Program-made: the position numbers and the translations under genes
Notes under the pieces: generated by a model
The model's input: the letters and a program-made list of their open reading frames with translations, nothing else
Databases searched by the model: none
What the model was told of the DNA's origin: nothing
Shown here: positions 1,565 to 17,445 of the stretch, one piece after another
Position numbering within the stretch: position 1 is the first letter of the stretch
Layout of the letters: each line of letters starts with the position of its first letter
IMG/VR virus record: IMGVR_UViG_3300047496_000198
Location: 1-20,917 of that record
Origin: a virus
Strand: one strand, 5' to 3'
Length of the DNA stretch: 20,917 bases

Positions 1565-1880
1565 GCTCTGATGCTCCGCTGTTCGTCGAGCCAAGCGCCT
1601 TGTCAACGCGGGCCATCCAAACGTTCACCGCATCAACGCCATTAAATCTATCAAGCCCCATAGACTTTGCGGCCCGCGTAGCTTTGTCCAACAGGGTACG
1701 TTCGGTAAAATTGTGATCGTTCCACACGAGCGCGCACCATAGAATGTCCCGGATGCCAGGGCTTATCTCGCGCAACAATTCCTCAAGCTCGCGGATGCGG
1801 GTTTCGTATCTCTTGCCAAGAATTTCCAGCGAATTGATGCGGCCACGAAGGTCAACTATTTCAATGTCTTTGTCGGTCAC
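1557..1880 (-). CDS. Hypothetical protein with N-terminal coiled coil
   Basis: This 107-residue protein has a first half rich in charged heptads (DLRGRINSLEILGKRYETRIRE and on), predicting a short coiled coil at about residues 8-40. The second half is helical with Trp-containing segments (ILWCALVWNDHNF, NVWMARVDKAL). It starts at GTG (1880), which overlaps the preceding stop as GTGA, with a strong GGGAGGTGAG ribosome site. The family is not recognised. The coiled coil suggests an oligomer or a partner protein. Confidence 0.75.
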   Translation of the reverse strand: MTDKDIEIVDLRGRINSLEILGKRYETRIRELEELLREISPGIRDILWCALVWNDHNFTERTLLDKATRAAKSMGLDRFNGVDAVNVWMARVDKALGSTNSGASEHG

Positions 1881-2392
1881 GTAGGCTCACCTCCCCGGTT
1901 CGACTGAAACGCTAACGCGCCATAAGGCGGATTGATCCAGACCTCATTACAAACGGCGCACTCGCCGCGTTGGACCTTCGCCAACTGCGCAACCTCGACG
2001 GTACAATTCGGTTTTTGCAGATCGTGTTCACAGGCCGTTTCCGAGGTAGCCGCAGGGCTAGATTGTGATGATTTAATCTCGTTCAATACGGCTGTCAGTC
2101 CACAGGTGCAGTCGTCCAGATTGGATCGCGCATAGACACGGCAATCCCCGCTGTGTCGGCTGTGTTTGCGCAGCGCCGCCTCCAGCGCCTGCACCCTGGC
2201 ACGATACTGCGTTACGGAATTCATCAATACTAGGCACGATTGGTGCCGTGCCTCCCTATCGGCCGCGAGGGCGTCGTAGTGGGCCGCGTCTACGAACTCC
2301 AGCGTGTAAGGAACAGAAAATCCTTTGATCGCCATTCGGTACTCGGTCCACGCATCGGCGATCTCGCGGTTGGTGTAGCGGCGTACTGTCAT
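1877..2392 (-). CDS. Hypothetical phage protein with Cys pairs
   Basis: This 171-residue protein has an ATG at 2392 behind AAAGGAGATG, a strong ribosome site. It has a helical first half with a coiled segment (RARVQALEAALRKH), then CRVYARSNLDDCTCGL and, near the end, CEHDLQKPNC and CAVCNEVW. These Cys/His clusters could bind zinc. The ALRKHS...DC.CGL pattern occurs in many small phage proteins of unknown role. It is coupled to the downstream gene by a GTGA overlap. Confidence 0.75.
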   Translation of the reverse strand: MTVRRYTNREIADAWTEYRMAIKGFSVPYTLEFVDAAHYDALAADREARHQSCLVLMNSVTQYRARVQALEAALRKHSRHSGDCRVYARSNLDDCTCGLTAVLNEIKSSQSSPAATSETACEHDLQKPNCTVEVAQLAKVQRGECAVCNEVWINPPYGALAFQSNRGGEPT

Positions 2393-2436
2393 GTTTCATC
2401 TCCTTTGGTGCGGGACTTGGTTTAGTTTGAGAATAG

Positions 2437-2997
2437 CTAGACATTGCGCACGGCCCGAACCAGGCCTTCGCCGTCTTGGCGGCCGCAGAGCGCGTCGCCA
2501 AAGTCGAAATCGACGAACCACGCGTAATCGCCGGGCGACGACGCGAGAGGAGTCGCGGTCCAATACCAGGAAGTTTTGCATGTGGGGAACGCGTCCTTGT
2601 CGATCGCCGGCGAATGCCGCTCGTAGTCGACCAGGGTGAGCAGCTCGCGGACCGTCGGGAGCCGCCAGTCGCTGAAGCCGCCCAAGCGTAGATCCGCGCA
2701 GACCTTGTGCGCATCCTTCCAAGTGAGATTGGCGCCGGTGTCCTCGCGCGCCCACATGAGGCCGGTCGAATGATCTACCACGAAGCGCCGCGGCGGCGGC
2801 GGTACATCGACACCGACAGTCTTCGATACGTCCGTCCCAAAGTTTGTCCAAGTATTGGCCCCGATAGTGGCGAAGGGGTTGACCGGCGACGCCTCCGCGG
2901 CGCACAGATGGCTGGCGATCATCAGGATCTCCGCCGCCGACGCCAATTCGAGGCGGCGCACAATGATCTCTTTCAGTTCGGTGATGAGTGTTTTCAT
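2437..2997 (-). CDS. DUF1566 / Lcl C-terminal-domain protein
   Basis: This 186-residue protein carries a clear DUF1566 domain at about residues 78-184: TGLMW, LTWKDAHKVCADL, GFSDWRLPTVRELLTLVDY, PAIDKDAFP, a YWTAT strand and a closing VRAVRN. The fold is lectin-like and is known from surface adhesins such as Legionella Lcl and from some variable proteins of diversity-generating retroelements. No reverse transcriptase or template repeat is seen here. The N-terminus is amphipathic helix without a convincing signal peptide. The ATG at 2997 has ACGGAGG 4-5 bases ahead; a TTG six codons upstream lacks this. An adhesin-type domain inside an early operon is unusual. Confidence 0.85.
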   Translation of the reverse strand: MKTLITELKEIIVRRLELASAAEILMIASHLCAAEASPVNPFATIGANTWTNFGTDVSKTVGVDVPPPPRRFVVDHSTGLMWAREDTGANLTWKDAHKVCADLRLGGFSDWRLPTVRELLTLVDYERHSPAIDKDAFPTCKTSWYWTATPLASSPGDYAWFVDFDFGDALCGRQDGEGLVRAVRNV

Positions 2998-3011
2998 TGA
3001 TCCTCCGTAGT

Positions 3012-3428
3012 TCAATTGAACGTCAGCAGCGGCGGCATCTTGCCGTCAGCGTAAGCCTGCTCAATGAGCGGCTTGGCATGCTCGGCAAGAGTCATGCCAT
3101 TGGGTAGCACAACGTGCGCCATGAACGATTCCTCAAACGTCTCTATGCCGGTCGCCACCGACTCTAGCTTGGCCTTGATGCACATCGACATCGAGCGCCA
3201 ACGCCGGCGAGTCTCTTTCTCAAAAGCTGTCTGCGAGCCGCATTGCTTCAACGACGGCAACGGCAAAACAAATCGTATGTGCCTGCCGCTTGACCGAAAC
3301 ACAATGACCGCCGAGTCTGATTTCGTGCCATAGCCGAACTGATCCGCTCCGAAGCGCGTCAAAGTGCGCTCTATCTCAGAGCGGGATCTGTCGGCCGGGA
3401 CGCTGGTCCCATTGGCGTATTTAGCCAT
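3012..3428 (-). CDS. Conserved hypothetical phage protein
   Basis: This 138-residue protein begins MAKYANGTSVPADRSRSEIE, followed by LTRFGADQFGYG, a strand pair (SAVIVFRSSGRHIRFVLPLP), a basic helix (EKETRRRWRSM) and a conserved-looking end (FMAHVVLPNGMTLAEHAKPLIEQAY..GKMPPLL). I recognise this as a family common in proteobacterial prophage early regions but without a known activity. The start ATG at 3428 has only a weak ribosome site. It lies 14 bases from the DUF1566 gene and 17 from the methyltransferase gene. Confidence 0.8.
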   Translation of the reverse strand: MAKYANGTSVPADRSRSEIERTLTRFGADQFGYGTKSDSAVIVFRSSGRHIRFVLPLPSLKQCGSQTAFEKETRRRWRSMSMCIKAKLESVATGIETFEESFMAHVVLPNGMTLAEHAKPLIEQAYADGKMPPLLTFN

Positions 3429-3445
3429 CTACCATGCTTATCCGG

Positions 3446-4351
3446 TTAGCACCCATGACCGCTATCCATAGTGGCTCTCACGAACTCCGCCGCGACTTGC
3501 GGGACGATGGCATTGCCGTAACCGCGCAGGCGTCCCATGCGGGCGGGTATCCCATGAGCCAGCGGGAATGTGCCGGGTTCAACTGGCCGCCACTTGCCGT
3601 CGATGCACTCAAGCCACTCGCTTGCAGCCCAAGGTCCGTGAGCGAAGCGCCCATCTGAACGCCCCGCGCTATCGCTTTCAGCTTCCGATCGACGAAGCCT
3701 TGCGCCGTTCCGCCTGCTGGAGCTCGTACTGGCGTCGCCCAACTCGCCAAACTGGTCGCTTGATTCAAGTCCTGCGGACCGCCCTTGCGGGCTATCTCCT
3801 TCAGACTGCCCTCCAGCGTCCTCACATTCTTGGCGCCGTCCGTCGCCCTGGCGGTCGGCCACGAACCACAGCCGTTGCCTGATGTGCGGGGCTTGGACGC
3901 CCGCAGCGCACAGATCTGCCGCCCCGACGGCGTAGTCCGCACTTTCCAAGTCAGCCGAAACAATATCCAGCCAGGCGAGGCCATCCTTGCTTGCAACCTG
4001 CTCTCCAAAGACCGTTGCAGGGCGATGCTCGCGGATGAGCCGGAAAAAATCCGGCCAGAGGTGGCGCTTGTCTTCCGTGCCGCCCTTTTGACCGGCGTCA
4101 CTGAAGGGCTGGCAGGGGCAGGAGCCAGTCCAGACGGCGCGATCGTCGGGCCATCCACCCAATCGTAGGGCGTAGCTCCATCCGCCGATGCCGGCGAAGA
4201 AATGGCACTGGGTAAACTTTGTGAGGTCATTGGGCTGTACGTCCTTGATGCTGCGTTCGTCAACCACGCCGTTTGCGATGTGGTCTTCTTTGATAAGTTC
4301 CCGGAGCCACGCGGCGGCCTTGGGGTCGTTTTCGTTGTAGTAGTTAATCAA
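3446..4351 (-). CDS. DNA (cytosine-5) methyltransferase, phage type
   Basis: This is a 301-residue 5mC methyltransferase, clearly different from the one at 590-1564. Motifs: FFAGIGGWSYAL (51-62), SCPCQPFS (77-84, nucleophile Cys80), GEQV (116-119) in place of ENV, APHIRQR (154-160), VEPG...AHG (258-267) and GYGNAIVPQ (277-285). Residues 161-245 are low in complexity and rich in Gly, Ser and Arg, where a recognition domain would sit. Homologues usually begin MxYYNE.D..AAAWLREL, matching this N-terminus. The start is therefore a TTG at 4351, directly after an in-frame stop (TAG ATC TTG), with GGAT 8 bases ahead. A long second frame runs through the same DNA (see nested ORF). No cognate nuclease is seen. 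Confidence 0.92.
   Translation of the reverse strand: MINYYNENDPKAAAWLRELIKEDHIANGVVDERSIKDVQPNDLTKFTQCHFFAGIGGWSYALRLGGWPDDRAVWTGSCPCQPFSDAGQKGGTEDKRHLWPDFFRLIREHRPATVFGEQVASKDGLAWLDIVSADLESADYAVGAADLCAAGVQAPHIRQRLWFVADRQGDGRRQECEDAGGQSEGDSPQGRSAGLESSDQFGELGDASTSSSRRNGARLRRSEAESDSAGRSDGRFAHGPWAASEWLECIDGKWRPVEPGTFPLAHGIPARMGRLRGYGNAIVPQVAAEFVRATMDSGHGC
3478..4263 (-). other. Long alternate-frame ORF nested in the methyltransferase gene
   Basis: A second minus-strand frame is open for about 260 codons entirely inside the methyltransferase gene, shifted +1 relative to it. Its peptide contains FSGSSASIALQRSLESRL, FRLTWKVRTTPSGRQICALR, SWATPVR and, at the end, NPAHSRWLMGYPPAWDACA then SSRKSRR. 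From memory, the same words recur in many database proteins annotated as hypothetical or methyltransferase at phage loci, so the frame seems conserved and not random. No good start or ribosome site is visible (TTG at 4263, ATG at 4230). It may be a real overlapping gene, a frameshift product, or a by-product of the conserved methyltransferase codons. Confidence 0.3.
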
Positions 4352-6072: not shown

Positions 6073-6291
6073 TCAATTCAAATGGCGCAGGATGGCACCG
6101 ACCATGCAGGCGTAGATCACGAACACGATTGTCCAGATCGACCATTCAGGATAGGACAGCACCACCGAGACAACGCCGACCGCGACCGTCAACATCCCCA
6201 TCAACAGCACCGCGCACAGGAGTGCGACCGCGATGATTATCCCTAAAATACTGGCCAAAGACCACAATCCCATCTCACTTTTGATCGTCAT
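6073..6291 (-). CDS. Small membrane protein, two transmembrane segments
   Basis: This is a 72-residue protein with two hydrophobic helices, at about residues 9-45 (long, Gly/Val/Leu rich, possibly bent) and 50-68 (WSIWTIVFVIYACMVGAIL), ending in RHLN. It has no signal cleavage site and few charges. ATG 6291 overlaps the csrA stop (ATGA), with GGGGAGG ahead. Size and topology would also suit a holin, but the early-operon position and lack of an endolysin neighbour argue against that. Confidence 0.7.
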   Translation of the reverse strand: MTIKSEMGLWSLASILGIIIAVALLCAVLLMGMLTVAVGVVSVVLSYPEWSIWTIVFVIYACMVGAILRHLN

Positions 6292-6470
6292 GAAGCCTCC
6301 CCGATTCGCTTGAGTTCCAGGCGTGCTCTCACCTCAGCGCGGTCGATCCGCACGCTGGCCGGCGCGCAGATTGCGAGCCGCACCTCGCCGCCGTTGATCC
6401 TCGTGACCGTGATCGATATGTCATCGCCGATCCGAATCGACTCGTTCGTGCACCTCGTCAGTATCAGCAT
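6288..6470 (-). CDS. csrA: CsrA/RsmA-family RNA-binding translational regulator
   Basis: This 60-residue protein is the usual CsrA length and begins MLILTR, followed by IRIGDDISITV, NGGEVRLAICAP and IDRAEV. These match the five-strand CsrA fold. Arg6 and Arg44, known from E. coli CsrA to contact RNA GGA motifs, are both present. The family binds GGA-containing leaders and alters translation or stability of target mRNAs as a dimer. ATG 6470 has an excellent AAGGAGAT site, embedded in the last codons of the upstream gene; the open frame upstream to 6512 is not needed. Its own leader contains AAGGAGA, so self-regulation is possible (inference). Host mRNA reprogramming by the phage is the attractive reading. 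Confidence 0.93.
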   Translation of the reverse strand: MLILTRCTNESIRIGDDISITVTRINGGEVRLAICAPASVRIDRAEVRARLELKRIGEAS

Positions 6471-6472
6471 TG

Positions 6473-6694
6473 CTATCTCCTTGGCTTTCGGAATTGTTCT
6501 GCCTGCGGGCATGTGGCGAAATGGCTCTTGTGTCGCGTCAAATCAAGCTGGTGTTCGGCGTCCGTGGGTTTGGTCGAGGCCTCATCGACCGGCATACGTT
6601 TGCCGCTTTTGGTGCGAAACCAGACAATTGGGGCGCCACAAGAACTGCACTTCACCTCAAAGGGATGATGTCGGCGAATTTCTTCTTGGGTCAC
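6473..6694 (-). CDS. Conserved small zinc-finger-like phage protein
   Basis: This 73-residue protein contains CSSCGAPIVWFRTKSGKRMPVDE followed by HKSHFATCPQAEQFRK. The CxxC and later H.....C arrangement predicts one zinc site of CCHC type. I recognise this as a widespread phage/prophage family (C..CGA.I.W..T..GK.MPVD...HFATCP.A..FRK) of unknown function. It starts at GTG 6694, overlapping the upstream stop (GTGA). No clear ribosome site exists, so translation is probably coupled. Its last codons supply the ribosome site of csrA. Confidence 0.8.
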   Translation of the reverse strand: MTQEEIRRHHPFEVKCSSCGAPIVWFRTKSGKRMPVDEASTKPTDAEHQLDLTRHKSHFATCPQAEQFRKPRR

Positions 6695-11055: not shown

Positions 11056-11141
11056 CCATGGCAGAGTGGCGGGTAGGCGCCGATCGCCGCCCATAGACGA
11101 TCTGAGGCGGTTTTAGAAAAAACAGCGGGGATGCCGGTTTG

Positions 11142-12221
11142 TTGAATCAAATTCACGTCGGGGATACCAGGGTATTAATGCGGCGCATGATCGCGGCGGG
11201 GATCAAGGTGCAGTGCATCGTGACGTCGCCCCCTTACTGGAATTTGAGAAATTACGACGTTGCCGGCCAATACGGTCTTGAGCGCACCTGGGTCCGCCAC
11301 GTCGCGCGGATGCGCGGGGTGTTTCGCTTGGCGCGCGAACTTCTGGCCGACGATGGGGTGTTGTGGCTGAATTACGGGGACAGCTATGCGAGTTCCGGCG
11401 GCGCCGGCTGGCAGGGCAAGCACGGGCAGCGGGCGAACCGGAGGCACACGCAACGGGCGTTGAAAAGGCGCACGGCAATGACCGGCTTGAAGCCGAAAGA
11501 TTTGGTCGGCATGCCCTGGCGGATTGCGTTCGCGCTGCAGGCGGACGGCTGGTATCTCCGGCAGGACATCATCTGGTCGAAGCCGAATCCGATGCCTGAG
11601 TCGACGCGCGATCGCTGCACCAAGGCGCATGAGCACGTGTTCCTGATGTCGAAATCCGAGCGCTACTACTGGGACTTCGAGGCCATGCAGGAGGACGTCG
11701 GCGGCGGGGCGCACGCGCGGCGCGCCAAGACCCCGGACGGGTGGGACACCGGCGAAGGCGCCCACGGCAGCTTCCACAAAGCGGGGCGCGAGAAGGGGCA
11801 CTTGCCCGGCAACCGAACCCACAAGGGCGTCACGGCCTACCAGAACGGCGATGAGCGCAGCCGCACCAAGGCCGGGTTGGTGGACTACGCCTCGAAGCTG
11901 CGCCCGAAAAGCAACGCCAGCATGGATGAAGCAATCAAAGATTTGGTGAGCCGACGCAACCGCCGCGACGTCTGGACGATCGCCTCCGAACCGTTCCGCG
12001 GCGCCCACTTTGCCACGTTCCCTACGGCCCTAGTCGAGCCCTGTATCCTCGCCGGCAGCCGCCCGGGGGATGTGATCTTCGATCCGTTCATGGGCTCGGG
12101 GACGGTGGCCAGCGTCGCCATGAGCCTCGGGCGGCAGTTTCTGGGGTGTGAGATCAATTCGGCCTACGCGGCCCTATTCGAGTCCGCGCGGTCGCAGCAA
12201 AAGGGGTTGGCGCTAGGATGA
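11142..12221 (+). CDS. DNA N4-cytosine / N6-adenine methyltransferase, beta class
   Basis: This is a 359-residue protein. The catalytic motif IV, TSPPYWNLRNY (28-38), precedes the AdoMet motif I, DPFMGSGT (314-321), the order of the beta class. SPPY is commoner in N4-cytosine enzymes but does not settle the base. In between are the usual DDGVLWLNYGD, GMPWRIAFALQADGWYLRQDIIWSKPNPMPES and HEHVFLMSKS segments. Residues about 180-260 are Gly/Lys/Arg rich and likely hold target recognition. Homologues begin MNQI..GD, so I chose the second of two consecutive TTG codons (11142). It overlaps the next gene as ATGA. No partner nuclease is present. Confidence 0.9.
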   Translation: MNQIHVGDTRVLMRRMIAAGIKVQCIVTSPPYWNLRNYDVAGQYGLERTWVRHVARMRGVFRLARELLADDGVLWLNYGDSYASSGGAGWQGKHGQRANRRHTQRALKRRTAMTGLKPKDLVGMPWRIAFALQADGWYLRQDIIWSKPNPMPESTRDRCTKAHEHVFLMSKSERYYWDFEAMQEDVGGGAHARRAKTPDGWDTGEGAHGSFHKAGREKGHLPGNRTHKGVTAYQNGDERSRTKAGLVDYASKLRPKSNASMDEAIKDLVSRRNRRDVWTIASEPFRGAHFATFPTALVEPCILAGSRPGDVIFDPFMGSGTVASVAMSLGRQFLGCEINSAYAALFESARSQQKGLALG

Positions 12222-12577
12222 TAGTTCGTCGTGGAACGTCCCGCTCGAAAGCCGACCAAGCCCGCTTGGACGCCATCCACGACCTGCCGTGCGTCGCCTG
12301 CGAAATGGACCACAGCGGCTTCGCCACCCTGATGCGCACCGAGGCTCACCATCTGGTCGATCGCGGCAACCGGGCGGCTTCCGGCGGCCACCAGGCGACG
12401 ATTCCGCTGTGCGGCTGGCACCACAGGGGCGAACCGCCGCGCATGGACATGTCAGCGGCGCAGGCGGAAACGATTTATGGGCCGTCGCTCGCGCGGTCGA
12501 AGCGCGACTTCGTGAAGCGCTACGGCACCGAGCGGGAGTTGCTGGCGAAAGTTGATCGCAGATTAGCCGGCTACTAA
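12218..12577 (+). CDS. HNH-type nuclease, Ref-like (RecA-dependent)
   Basis: This 119-residue protein has CVAC (25-28), EAHHL (42-46) and IPLCGWHHRG (62-71), a zinc and beta-beta-alpha-metal arrangement. The spacing and the later GPSLARSKRDFVKRYGTERELL match small phage proteins related to P1 Ref, a nuclease that acts with RecA. Expected role: cutting DNA at recombination intermediates during phage replication. ATG 12218 overlaps the methyltransferase stop (ATGA), so the two are coupled. The gene ends 8 bases from the convergent TerL stop. Confidence 0.75.
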   Translation: MIVRRGTSRSKADQARLDAIHDLPCVACEMDHSGFATLMRTEAHHLVDRGNRAASGGHQATIPLCGWHHRGEPPRMDMSAAQAETIYGPSLARSKRDFVKRYGTERELLAKVDRRLAGY

Positions 12578-12585
12578 TCGGCAAT

Positions 12586-14253
12586 TCAGGCGTACTTGCG
12601 CGGTCGCCGTTGCCAGGTGAAGGGGTTTATTTCCTCTCCCAGCTGGTCGTCGTCTGGCAAAGACAGGTCATAGAATCGCCGCAAGTATTGAAAGGCGATC
12701 GTCACGGTGCTTGTGATGTCGTCGTGGTCACCCGATGGAAAGAGCGCACAGTGGTCTATGACTTTGTAGCTGAACGAGCGCGGGCAATACCAGATGCAGC
12801 CCTTCTCTAGCATCAGGCTGGCCTCGTGCGCTCGAGCGATCAAGTCTCCTTGGCCGCGGCCGCGGCCGCTTGAACCAGCCAGACCCACGGCCTTCACGGG
12901 CAACTTTTTGCGGCGCAGCTCTTGAAGCAAGCTATGTCCGCTGGACTTCTTTTCGATCAGGATCCAGTCCGGTGCGAACGATTCATTGGAGCGGATCACC
13001 TCTGAGCGCAGATCTGGATAGGAGAGCCTTTCCTCCATGCAATCGAGTAGCATCGCGCAAATGCGCTGCAGCCTTGAGATGATTTTGCCGTTCGCATCGC
13101 GCTGTACGTCCTCGTAGTTGAACACTCCCCAGGTGGTGCGGGCGCTGAAATCGGCTTCTTCGTCCTCCTCGAAAGCGGTGTCGTAGACTTGGATCATCTC
13201 GAAGAAATCCGGTAGCGGTTTTTCCTCGCCGGCTTGCGGGTGGTCGTCCGGCCACACCCAAGGACGCCACCAGCCGCGCTTCAAGATCAAGCCTCCCTGG
13301 CCCTCGGGCTGCTGCTGGTACTGCGCGTTCCAAGCGCGCGAGCTCATGATGCCTTTTTCGTGTTTGGCGGTCGCTGCGTCGAAGCGCTTCGGATCCAGCA
13401 TCTCGCCGTCGATCTTGCGTGGGTCCTTGAACAACGGTTTGGCATTCGGTTCAACGCCGTTGCCTTTGTTCGGATACGTGATGCAGGCGCGCGTCGAGTC
13501 GAACTCCAAGGGCAGCATCAGATGCACCCAGCGTTTGCCTTCTTGCGCCAGCACATGTCCGACCACATCACTGTCGTGCGTGCGCTGCGCGACGTAGAGT
13601 TTCTGCGCCGTCAGTGGATTGTTCACGCGCGAACGCCACTCGTTGTCGTGCCAATTGAGTGTCGCTTGGCGGATCGTGTCCGACTCGATTTGCTTTACGG
13701 AATTTGGATCATCCAAAATCTGCAGATCCCCCCCGCTCCCTATGACGCGCCCTTGCACGGATGCGGAAATGCGATTGCCGCCCACGCTGTTGCGATATTG
13801 GCGCCCTGAATTCTCATCCGGCAACAGGTAGAACCGATCGCCGTACATGCGTTGATACCATGGCGACTCGATCACGCGCCGCGAGAGGCGGCTGAAATCA
13901 AGCGACAAGCGATCATCAACGGAAGCTGTCAAAAATTGCGTAGTCGGCTGGTGGATCCAATGCCATACCGGAAACAAGACCGAGCAAATGATCGACTTTG
14001 AATGGCGCGGCGGAAGCGATACCGCCAAGAAACGGATTTCCCCTTTGGTTAAAGCCACCAAGTGGGAACACAAAGCATCGAGGTGCCAACCCCATACGAG
14101 TCTCTGCGGCGCCACCTGAGACCAAGCCGCCTTGCAAAACGCCCGGAAGTCGCCAGCGAACTCCTGCGCCGCGATGTAATACAGCAACCGTTCCGCATGG
14201 GTACGGTCGTGGCGATCAAGGATCGCCTGCACTCTGGCATCAACTGCGCTCAT
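12586..14253 (-). CDS. terL: Terminase large subunit
   Basis: This 555-residue ATPase and nuclease drives DNA packaging into proheads. The ATPase has a Walker A-like PPRHSKS (81-87) and Walker B LQILDDP (177-183). The RNase H-like nuclease has Asp358 (QVYDTAFE), Glu434 (ILIEKKSSG) and the acidic pair in SGDHDD (507-512). The layout is that of the Terminase_6 group. The ATG at 14253 is used; a TTG at 14292 overlaps the preceding stop (TTGA) but has no ribosome site. Residues 464-470 are encoded by an overlapping GCGGCCGC run. The expected portal gene does not follow: the operon ends here, facing the HNH gene. Confidence 0.95.
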   Translation of the reverse strand: MSAVDARVQAILDRHDRTHAERLLYYIAAQEFAGDFRAFCKAAWSQVAPQRLVWGWHLDALCSHLVALTKGEIRFLAVSLPPRHSKSIICSVLFPVWHWIHQPTTQFLTASVDDRLSLDFSRLSRRVIESPWYQRMYGDRFYLLPDENSGRQYRNSVGGNRISASVQGRVIGSGGDLQILDDPNSVKQIESDTIRQATLNWHDNEWRSRVNNPLTAQKLYVAQRTHDSDVVGHVLAQEGKRWVHLMLPLEFDSTRACITYPNKGNGVEPNAKPLFKDPRKIDGEMLDPKRFDAATAKHEKGIMSSRAWNAQYQQQPEGQGGLILKRGWWRPWVWPDDHPQAGEEKPLPDFFEMIQVYDTAFEEDEEADFSARTTWGVFNYEDVQRDANGKIISRLQRICAMLLDCMEERLSYPDLRSEVIRSNESFAPDWILIEKKSSGHSLLQELRRKKLPVKAVGLAGSSGRGRGQGDLIARAHEASLMLEKGCIWYCPRSFSYKVIDHCALFPSGDHDDITSTVTIAFQYLRRFYDLSLPDDDQLGEEINPFTWQRRPRKYA

Positions 14254-14288
14254 CTCAGGGTGTCCCTGGAGCCCCGTGGGGCCTGCAA

Positions 14289-14522
14289 TCAATCGACGGT
14301 GACGCCGATCCGCGCACCGAGCCTGTGCGCCAAGTTAATCAAAAACGCGAGGCTAAAGCGCTGAAATGTGCCGGTGCACAACCGCGACATGATGTCGGGG
14401 GTGAACCCCAATGCCTTGCAGGCGTCCCGCTGGGTGACGTACTGGGCGCGGATTTTGGTGGCGATTCCTTCGATCAGGATCAGTTTGACGTGGTCAACCT
14501 GCTCCGATCCACGCGTTTTCAC
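14289..14522 (-). CDS. XRE-type helix-turn-helix regulator
   Basis: This is a 77-residue protein with YVTQRDACKALGFTPDIMSRLCTG (about 28-51), then FSLAFLINLAHRLGARIGVTV. This is the HTH_37 / HigA-like XRE pattern: TQ..A...LG...+.+S.L..G...+FS...L...A..LG..+.+.+. It should bind DNA. GTG 14522 overlaps the stop of the upstream gene (GTGA) without a clear ribosome site. It lies directly upstream of terL in the same operon. No HigB-like toxin gene is next to it. Confidence 0.8.
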   Translation of the reverse strand: MKTRGSEQVDHVKLILIEGIATKIRAQYVTQRDACKALGFTPDIMSRLCTGTFQRFSLAFLINLAHRLGARIGVTVD

Positions 14523-15522: not shown

Positions 15523-16203
15523 TTATTCAGGGTCAGATTGGTCATCGTCGTGCATTCCGAACACTTGGCGGGCCGCCTCGGTGCCCACCAGATCGATCAG
15601 CAACCCCTTGACGTGCCGCAACTTTTCCATATCGAGGTCATGCAAGTGCAGGTGGTTGTGGGTCTCGTTGTCCTTTTTCGAGAAGCCAGCCGCCTGTTCG
15701 CCCAAGACGGTGAAAGCGGACAGCCGGGTCTTGGCCGCCGGCAGGCTGTACGAAATCTTGCCCGTCACATGGTCATAGGACACTTGATCGACCGCGGCGG
15801 CTTCCTCGCGCGTGAGCTCCAAGATAGTCTTCATCCGAAAGCCTGGCGTGGCATTGCCCTTCTCGTCGATGTTGACGCAGGGAGTCACATAGTCGAGCGC
15901 GTTGGCGTAAGCGATCCTGGCGATGCCCTCCAAGATGTCCTTGCGCTCATAGGCGATATCGCGCGACACGATGGCTTCGACCTTCGGCAGCCTAGCGTCC
16001 AAGTAGCGACGGAAGCGCTGCAGCTTGCGCGCCGAGCGGGTGTGATTATTGGAGTCCGAATGCCCCGCCTCGCGGTAGGCTCGAACATGGTCATGGTGGA
16101 CCAGCCAGCGCTCGCAGAATTTCAGGTCCATCTCGTTCTTCGGGGTCGCGCCTTCCTGCACTTTGCGCGTCGGCGGCAGATTTCGAGTCTTAACCTTCTT
16201 CAC
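15523..16203 (-). CDS. terS: Terminase small subunit
   Basis: This is a 226-residue protein. After a basic N-terminus (VKKVKTRNLPPTRK) comes a helix-turn-helix-like segment, FCERWLVHHDHVRAYREAGHSDSNNHTRSARKLQRFRRYL, of the kind TerS uses to bind the packaging site. Residues about 105-180 carry LEGIARIAYANALDYVTP, LTREEAAAVDQVSYD and AAKTRLSAFTVLGEQAAGFSKKD, a central oligomerisation region shared by terminase small subunits of this group. The GTG at 16203 overlaps the previous stop (GTGA) and is preferred to the TTG at 16224. Five small genes separate it from terL, a longer distance than usual. Confidence 0.85.
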   Translation of the reverse strand: MKKVKTRNLPPTRKVQEGATPKNEMDLKFCERWLVHHDHVRAYREAGHSDSNNHTRSARKLQRFRRYLDARLPKVEAIVSRDIAYERKDILEGIARIAYANALDYVTPCVNIDEKGNATPGFRMKTILELTREEAAAVDQVSYDHVTGKISYSLPAAKTRLSAFTVLGEQAAGFSKKDNETHNHLHLHDLDMEKLRHVKGLLIDLVGTEAARQVFGMHDDDQSDPE

Positions 16204-16454
16204 GCCGGCTGTCTCGCGGTCCAATGAGCGGAGCGGATGCTGGCGTGAAAATTACCATGCGCGTCGCGGCGAATATCAGCGTGGGCGTAGTCGATCAATT
16301 CAAGACCCACGAATTCTGCGACGCCCTTCACATATTCCGAACGACTGCGGGCCGTCGAGAGGGTGTTCCATTCCGCTAGTCTGTCAGATATTTCTGACGC
16401 TGATATATTAATCTCCAGCTCGTGGCAGATCAGAACGTTCAACACCAGGTGCAT
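16200..16454 (-). CDS. Hypothetical protein upstream of terS
   Basis: From ATG 16454 the frame gives 84 residues with a hydrophobic start (MHLVLNVLICHELEINIS), then EISDRLAEWNTLSTARSRSEYVKGVAEFVGLELIDYAHADIRRDAHGN. The start lacks a ribosome site, and its first third coincides with the plus-strand promoter and dyad at 16381-16409. A shorter form from GTG 16331 (CGGAAT ahead, 43 residues) would leave that control region non-coding. It overlaps terS by four bases. Function unknown. Confidence 0.45.
   Translation of the reverse strand: MHLVLNVLICHELEINISASEISDRLAEWNTLSTARSRSEYVKGVAEFVGLELIDYAHADIRRDAHGNFHASIRSAHWTARQPA
16381..16409 (+). promoter_or_regulatory. Rightward promoter for the reversed unit
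   Basis: CTGTCA (16381-16386, 4 of 6 to TTGACA), a spacer of exactly 17 bases and TATATT (16404-16409, 5 of 6 to TATAAT). The start would be near 16416, about 40 bases before the ATG at 16456. The short AT-rich patch stands out from its GC-rich surroundings and carries an operator-like dyad. Confidence 0.6.
16383..16398. promoter_or_regulatory. 16-base dyad, candidate repressor operator
   Basis: GTCAGATATTTCTGAC is a perfect inverted repeat with 6-base arms and a TATT centre. It lies across the -35 box and spacer, where a bound repressor would block polymerase. The size suits a dimeric helix-turn-helix regulator such as the XRE protein (14289-14522) or the YdaS-like protein (4632-4898). I found no second copy in this window. 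Confidence 0.5.
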
Positions 16455-16455
16455 G

Positions 16456-16797
16456 ATGAGCAGATTACTCACCGATCGGGAGATGGTCCAGTTCATTTCT
16501 GACCTTCAGCACACGCCAGAGGGGCAGCGATACCGGAAGGCTTGGGATATGCGGCAGCGGGCCTTGAAGAACGTCCTACGGCTGAACGCCGACAAAACCG
16601 CCACCGATGCGGACTGTGATGCGGCCAGGCGCATCTACATCGCCAACGCCGATCAGGCCAGCCTTGCGCTCGGCAAGGTCACAGAGAGATTCGGCTGGCC
16701 CACCGATGCACACTTTGAGTCCGGGTTTATCTACCGCCCGCCTGCCGCACGAGCTTCACTTCCACGCCGTACACGTCAAAAACCTGCTTCAACTTGA
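16456..16797 (+). CDS. Plus-strand hypothetical protein inside the leftward block
   Basis: This 113-residue protein is helical and charged: MSRLLTDREMVQFISDLQHTP, GQRYRKAWDMRQRALKNVLRLN, DCDAARRIYIANADQASLALGKVTERFGWP, with a basic tail. A CAGG lies 6 bases before the second of two adjacent ATGs (16453 and 16456). No minus-strand gene occupies 16455-16726, so this is the best reading of that stretch. It overlaps the convergent DUF1064 gene by 71 bases. The promoter and dyad upstream make it look like an independently controlled insertion (moron). Family not recognised; a small regulator is possible. Confidence 0.55.
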   Translation: MSRLLTDREMVQFISDLQHTPEGQRYRKAWDMRQRALKNVLRLNADKTATDADCDAARRIYIANADQASLALGKVTERFGWPTDAHFESGFIYRPPAARASLPRRTRQKPAST

Positions 16798-17164
16798 GGT
16801 TCTTGAGTGCGCTGTCGGCACCGTGCGCGTCCTCGAACGTCACGCCGCCGCTGTACAGATCGGTTCCCCACACAATCATGAAATCGGCGCGAAAAATGGC
16901 GTGCCCGGGCAGTCTGAACGGAACTTGACAGAGGAAATAGCGGATTTTTCCAGCCTTTTGCAGCAACTTCAATTCCTCGTAGCGCCGTCCTTCAAGCTTA
17001 GAATCGAACGTCCACCCGTCGATCGTCACTTTCTCGTTGCCGTATTTGCTGTTGGTGCGCTCCCGCGGCATCAGCTTGGTCTGCGCCGGCGGGGGTGCTG
17101 CGGGCCGGCGACCGCTTTGGTTCTCAAATTTGCTCAGGTCCTGCTCGGTCCAACGCTTGTTCAT
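16727..17164 (-). CDS. DUF1064 nuclease-like protein
   Basis: This is a 145-residue protein. Residues 39-75 (SKYGNEKVTIDGWTFDSKLEGRRYEELKLLQKAGKI) and 84-128 (RLPGHAIFRADFMIVW, VTFEDAHGADSALKNLKLK) match DUF1064, a phage endonuclease-like family of the PD-(D/E)xK type. Glu58, Asp94 and Glu111 can serve as acidic residues, but the usual Lys of EDVKG is His114 here (EDAHG), so activity may be altered. The first 35 residues are Pro-rich. ATG 17164 overlaps the preceding stop (ATGA) with TTGGAG ahead. Likely role: processing branched DNA in replication or before packaging. Confidence 0.8.
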   Translation of the reverse strand: MNKRWTEQDLSKFENQSGRRPAAPPPAQTKLMPRERTNSKYGNEKVTIDGWTFDSKLEGRRYEELKLLQKAGKIRYFLCQVPFRLPGHAIFRADFMIVWGTDLYSGGVTFEDAHGADSALKNLKLKQVFDVYGVEVKLVRQAGGR

Positions 17165-17445
17165 GGCATCTCCAAGTCATCCGCCTTGTAGTCGTACCTG
17201 CCGCGCAGCTCCGCGCGGCCGGCTTTGTTCAGTTCCTCTACGCAGAAATCGTTCAGCGCATCACAGAAGGATGCCGCCCGCCGCTCAAATTCCAAGGTGT
17301 GGATCGGCGACCAGACCTCCCGGGCATGCATATACAGCGTCATTGCCTTGTGCGCGCCCGGATGCCCGCGCTCGGCCAGCCGCTTCAATTCGTAGCGATT
17401 ACTCGCCATCCAAGCCATCGCGGTCGGCAGCGTCATCGTCCCCAT
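17161..17445 (-). CDS. Hypothetical protein
   Basis: This is a 94-residue protein beginning MGTMTLPTAMAWMASNRYELKRLAERG and continuing with helices (GAHKAMTLYMHAREVWSP, FERRAASFCDALNDFCVEELNKAG). The ATG at 17445 has GGAG 6 bases ahead but overlaps the upstream gene by 47 bases; the ATG at 17409 would cut the overlap but has no ribosome site. Similar short proteins with a T...A..WM..N...LK.LA..G opening occur in phages. Role unknown. Confidence 0.65.
   Translation of the reverse strand: MGTMTLPTAMAWMASNRYELKRLAERGHPGAHKAMTLYMHAREVWSPIHTLEFERRAASFCDALNDFCVEELNKAGRAELRGRYDYKADDLEMP

Follow-up and report, generated by a model that had tools for sequence, protein, structure and literature searches.

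A conserved reversed gene opposing the terminase operon in a group of phages, with a putative promoter inside the facing gene

Genes and features at the locus

The window, by which we mean the entire stretch of 20,917 nucleotides of viral DNA analyzed here (IMG/VR record IMGVR_UViG_3300047496_000198), contains a short plus-strand gene among minus-strand genes near the gene for the terminase small subunit (terS) (Table 1). A first-pass annotation of this DNA had pointed out this reversed gene, and its existence is borne out by a plus-strand frame that is open from 16363 to 16797, by a conserved start codon and by homologues in related phages. A second plus-strand ATG, at 16453, is an alternative start that would overlap the start codon of the gene on the opposite side.

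The same annotation held that no minus-strand gene occurs in this part of the window. This is correct for positions 16455-16726, across which the relatives were examined and carry no conserved minus-strand gene, an outcome that favors its reading of a separate reversed gene, but a facing gene immediately beyond that interval had been overlooked. Its start was placed at 16454 on the grounds that the homologous proteins of the relatives begin with M(R/H/Q)LV, and given the extent of this gene, both the putative promoter of the reversed gene and the dyad that overlaps it fall within its coding sequence. The two start codons in the window are arranged head to head and separated by one base (16454-16452 for the facing gene). 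In the related contig L090, where the facing gene starts with TTG, they have one base in common; in L092, choosing the ATG closest to the conserved MQLV makes them overlap at CATG.

At its other end, the reversed gene is arranged tail to tail with the DUF1064 or resolvase-like nuclease gene, with an overlap of 71 nt. No plus-strand terminator-like site was found directly after 16797; the nearest is at 17200, and sites of this type are no more frequent than expected by chance. The G+C content of the reversed gene is 0.591 compared with 0.596 for the window, which places it in the 49th percentile.

Table 1. Positions of the features discussed (window coordinates unless a contig is named)
Feature	Positions	Strand	Basis or remarks
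Reversed gene	16456-16797	+	113 aa, predicted helical; conserved part extends to F.Y.PP, about residue 98
Putative promoter (-35 CTGTCA, spacer 17, TG-extended -10 TATATT)	16381-16409	+	Conservation in L090
Imperfect dyad GTCAGATATTTCTGAC, possible operator	16383-16398		Overlaps the -35
AGGTG, candidate ribosome-binding site for the reversed gene	16447-16451	+	L090 retains GAGGTG
Facing gene	16200-16454	-	84 aa, conserved, directly upstream of terS; coding sequence holds the putative promoter
terS	15523-16224	-	Terminase_2 4e-5 (narrowly below the curated cut-off); phrog_51 1.5e-4; alignment with relatives
DUF1064 or resolvase-like nuclease gene	16727-17164	-	DUF1064 6e-12; phrog_190 2e-22
TerL gene	12586-14292		Query used to reach relatives
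DUF7352 gene, L101	2365-2661	-	Opposite terL
DUF7352 gene, L103	3361-3852	-	Opposite terL
DUF7352 gene, L104	5096-5404	-	Opposite terL
DUF7352 gene, L120	2827-3210	-	Opposite terL

An undescribed protein family

Direct searches with the reversed or the facing protein of the window found nothing, a nucleotide search of phages gave no match, and a scan of genome contigs yielded only distant TerL relatives. Relatives were reached solely via TerL in IMG/VR, followed by profiles built from the paired proteins. The reversed ORF of L003/L092 (57% by TerL) has TPEGQRY..AW and YI..A...WP in common with that of the window, and the reversed pair and the facing pair each outscore all 1000 shuffles; BLASTP left the two facing proteins unaligned, and these were linked by the shuffle test and the later profiles. 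Profile searches with the reversed gene then identified homologues in L090 (E 7.5e-28), L125 (3e-12), L098 (8.5e-10) and L094 (1.4e-9), which brings the family to five related viral contigs besides the window, with one copy per contig, always on the strand opposite to terL. Homologues of the facing gene lie directly upstream of terS in L092 and in the contigs found with its own profile (L090, L093, L094, L095, L096, L098 and L125).

Alignment of the six reversed proteins shows a C-terminal F.Y.PP-like motif in all of them except that of L092, which stops earlier, with identity falling to about 22%. The family is absent from Pfam, PHROGs and PADLOC (no PADLOC model matched any of the six members), in agreement with the initial remark that the product matches nothing known. 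In Pfam, no member gave a match better than E 0.09, and PF24043 (DUF7352) was not matched; hits to Prok-TraM (E 0.09), phrog_16371 (E 0.016) and PDB (E 0.94) are at noise level and were set aside. For the facing protein, there is likewise no useful Pfam or PHROGs match.

Comparison of the reversed genes of the window and L090 gives dN 0.64 and dS 1.48 (P=0.0008 for nonsynonymous versus synonymous change). Among L094, L098 and L125, dN/dS is 0.34-0.40, and for the family overall it is about 0.34-0.43; on these ratios, the gene is under purifying selection. An AlphaFold2 model, built on six sequences only, predicts helices at residues 7-19, 21-45 and 51-79 followed by a loose C-terminus. The mean pLDDT over residues 21-70 exceeds 90, while the model as a whole has a pLDDT of 77 and a pTM of 0.59. 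Conservation of the protein, of its reversed direction and of a likely promoter in related phages indicates that this is a real accessory gene, of a type that phages often carry.

Distribution and history among relatives

The presence of the reversed gene varies among the related phages, and so does its position. In the window, L090 and L092, it is flanked by the nuclease gene on one side and the facing gene on the other. Its place in L094, L098 and L125 is two genes farther upstream, where it faces the homologue of window gene 17448-17161; in L098, the DUF1064-like gene directly adjoins the terS-proximal gene. L093 carries no reversed gene at either position. Thus, as comparison with L093, L098, L094 and L125 makes clear, the reversed gene is an extra gene between genes that are neighbors in relatives. 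In the TerL tree, all carriers belong to one supported clade (100/98) with L092 in the basal position; the rows for L091, L095, L096 and L097 are cut contigs that give no firm information on gene presence. From its confinement to a single TerL clade, combined with the differing positions and the absence from L093, we conclude that this is a long-standing gene of the clade that has been moved or lost.

The sister clade (L101, L103, L104 and L120) has, in place of this family, a reversed DUF7352 (PF24043) gene immediately upstream of terS. The two resemble each other in that each is small, is oriented opposite to terL, occurs once per contig and lies upstream of terS, but the protein families are unrelated, and across the 16 records tested, they are mutually exclusive.

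The putative promoter and the dyad

The 17-spaced promoter with a TATATT -10 that had been proposed for the reversed gene is present, in the form CTGTCA-N17-TATATT. It scores 9/12, with TG before the -10, and no other TG-extended site in the 20.9 kb window, on whichever strand, scores 9/12 or higher; by itself, it is not significant because sequences simulated with matching dinucleotide frequencies average 0.58 such sites. The block from AGTCTGTCAG to ATTTCTGACGCTGATATA is nearly identical in L090, where it reads CTGTCA-17-TATAGT and retains the TG. Between the window and L090, third positions of the facing gene are changed in 1 of the 10 codons in 16380-16409 versus 47 of 74 elsewhere (P=0.0017, a value that depends on the promoter interval having been fixed beforehand by the first-pass annotation). 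When only codons for the same amino acid are considered, the change affects 1/8 inside the promoter and 29/44 outside (P=0.007). Without this prompt, a scan for unchanged third positions over every 10-codon window of the facing gene reaches only P=0.065.

Beyond L090, a weaker TG-extended candidate, TGGTCA-18-TAAATT (8/12), is found in L092 at a similar distance from the reversed gene. No sigma70-like promoter matching the quality of that in the window was detected in L092, L094, L098 or L125, and the latter three lack a candidate even of the L092 quality (TG-extended 8/12). In the clade of L094, L098 and L125, a different block upstream of the reversed gene is conserved, TTGCGGA.GGC.AG...TAGCC..TACGCT, though it is mostly intergenic. 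Conservation of the promoter thus depends mainly on one genome pair, the window and L090. Within this pair, the putative promoter appears to be kept beyond the constraint imposed by the protein, which supports separate control of the reversed gene, as had been surmised.

The dyad over the -35 is imperfect. Described earlier as a perfect 16-base dyad, GTCAGATATTTCTGAC has only 7 of 8 symmetric pairs, with 6-bp arms and a 4-nt center. Dyads as good as this one occur 11 times in the window, and inverted repeats with 6-bp arms are found at about 1.6 per 417 bp. In L090, the dyad is poorly retained, with the arms shrinking to 5 bp (GTCAG-N6-CTGAC).

Lifestyle and comparison with known accessory genes

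Tyrosine integrase (PF00589), serine recombinase (PF00239) and S24 repressor (PF00717) were not found in the window and ten relatives, whereas the controls were positive. Five of these 11 records exceed 60 kb and none is classed as complete, so that the absence of lysogeny genes is strong only when the records are taken together. CRP-901/902, which by TerL (37-39% identical) are the closest relatives in culture, are described as strictly lytic (PMC10149686). The phage is probably incapable of lysogeny.

Phage morons, by the definition restated in PMC6316719, are accessory transcription units that phage genomes have acquired by insertion. The locus resembles them in having a single extra reversed gene, with a candidate promoter of its own, amid genes that adjoin each other in some relatives, and in encoding a protein of about 100 aa that has no known relatives. 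It differs in that no terminator was found, the base composition is ordinary, and the gene has been inherited in one TerL clade since its base, with no sign of a prophage. The label of moron that had been attached to the gene consequently holds for its variable presence and position but fails for foreign base composition and a terminator, and we regard the gene as moron-like rather than as a textbook moron. In the lytic phage SPP1, small accessory genes of unknown function interrupt the packaging and assembly region (PMC6316719); the reversed gene is similarly small and located within the packaging region, SPP1 being adduced as a described example only.

Interpretation and alternatives

The gene and its family, their constant orientation and purifying selection, the promoter conserved in L090, the head-to-head junction and the lack of integrase and S24 repressor can all be read from the DNA itself. 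The explanation that we favor, with a probability of roughly 0.55, is an early accessory gene driven by the host polymerase and later shut off by opposing transcription of the terminase operon. Under this scenario, an old, conserved accessory gene in a phage group without detectable lysogeny genes would be transcribed by host RNA polymerase from the sigma70-type extended -10 promoter embedded in the facing gene. The transcript would begin near 16416, with a leader of about 40 nt in which AGGTG precedes the start codon, and a small helical protein would be made, probably early in infection. Later, transcription of the terminase operon would pass antisense across the reversed gene and its promoter, which should shut the gene down. 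Firing of the promoter, early timing and silencing are what we infer from this arrangement. No function-bearing homologue of the protein was found, and its role as a host-takeover or counter-defense factor is a guess. Because opposing transcription should silence the reversed gene, the two directions would form an early/late switch; the stronger proposal that such a switch is built into the locus, with a promoter concealed in a packaging-operon gene so that transcription one way excludes the other, and with DUF7352 filling the same role in the sister clade, is speculative.

The alternatives differ in what they take to be the active product. RNA from the promoter at 16381, more than the protein, might act as an antisense timer that delays the facing and terminase genes until late; in the window, L090 and L092, the start codons touch or overlap, which would indeed make the transcripts complementary there. 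However, a different gene is faced in L094, L098 and L125, where the terS-proximal pairing is absent, and the reversed protein is under purifying selection, so we consider this account improbable. Less probable still is a small regulatory protein that, by binding the dyad at the -35 of its own gene, governs both directions: the overlap speaks for it, but the dyad is imperfect, frequent by chance and poorly retained in L090, and the AlphaFold2 model consists of long helices that recall no recognizable DNA-binding family.

About equally doubtful is the suggestion, also made at the outset, of a moron expressed during lysogeny for superinfection exclusion or host defense. A single reversed gene with its own likely promoter and with variable presence and position would suit this idea; against it stand the 11 records (five above 60 kb) without tyrosine integrase, serine recombinase or S24 repressor, the lack of a PADLOC match and a G+C content equal to that of the window. 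Expression in lysogens and a role in exclusion or defense are accordingly left without support. Finally, failure of protein-family libraries to produce a match might be taken to mean that there is no plus-strand gene and that the ORF is spurious, but this is refuted by the conservation data, namely homologues that retain conserved features at identities as low as about 22%, an orientation that never varies and a dN/dS ratio of less than 1, and we assign it a negligible probability.

The findings add an undescribed phage protein family of constant reversed orientation whose promoter is apparently conserved inside another gene. They further suggest that the region just upstream of terS holds different reversed genes in different phage lineages and may be a useful place to seek early host-takeover or counter-defense factors.

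Other genes in the window and in relatives

The window also encodes a phage CsrA, an RNA-binding global regulator (6288-6512, minus strand; PF02599, E 2e-19), and, within 21 kb, three DNA methyltransferases, two C5-cytosine and one N6/N4 (590-1606 and 3446-4351, minus strand; 11139-12221, plus strand). An HTH_37-type DNA-binding gene (14289-14522, minus strand; E 1.5e-9) lies directly upstream of terL, and many relatives have a small homologous ORF ahead of terL. Convergent with terL is a gene for a RecA-dependent nuclease (12218-12577, plus strand; PF16786, E 1.4e-21), with homologues in the same place and orientation in L090 and L091. In L004, two further reversed ORFs, which encode 86 and 375 aa and match nothing in Pfam, are located upstream of terS (1576-1836 and 1897-3024, minus strand), the shorter of which matches the reversed family only very weakly (E 2.8). 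In L005, an RNase H gene that adjoins a DUF7352 gene is likewise reversed and upstream of terS (1577-2059, minus strand).
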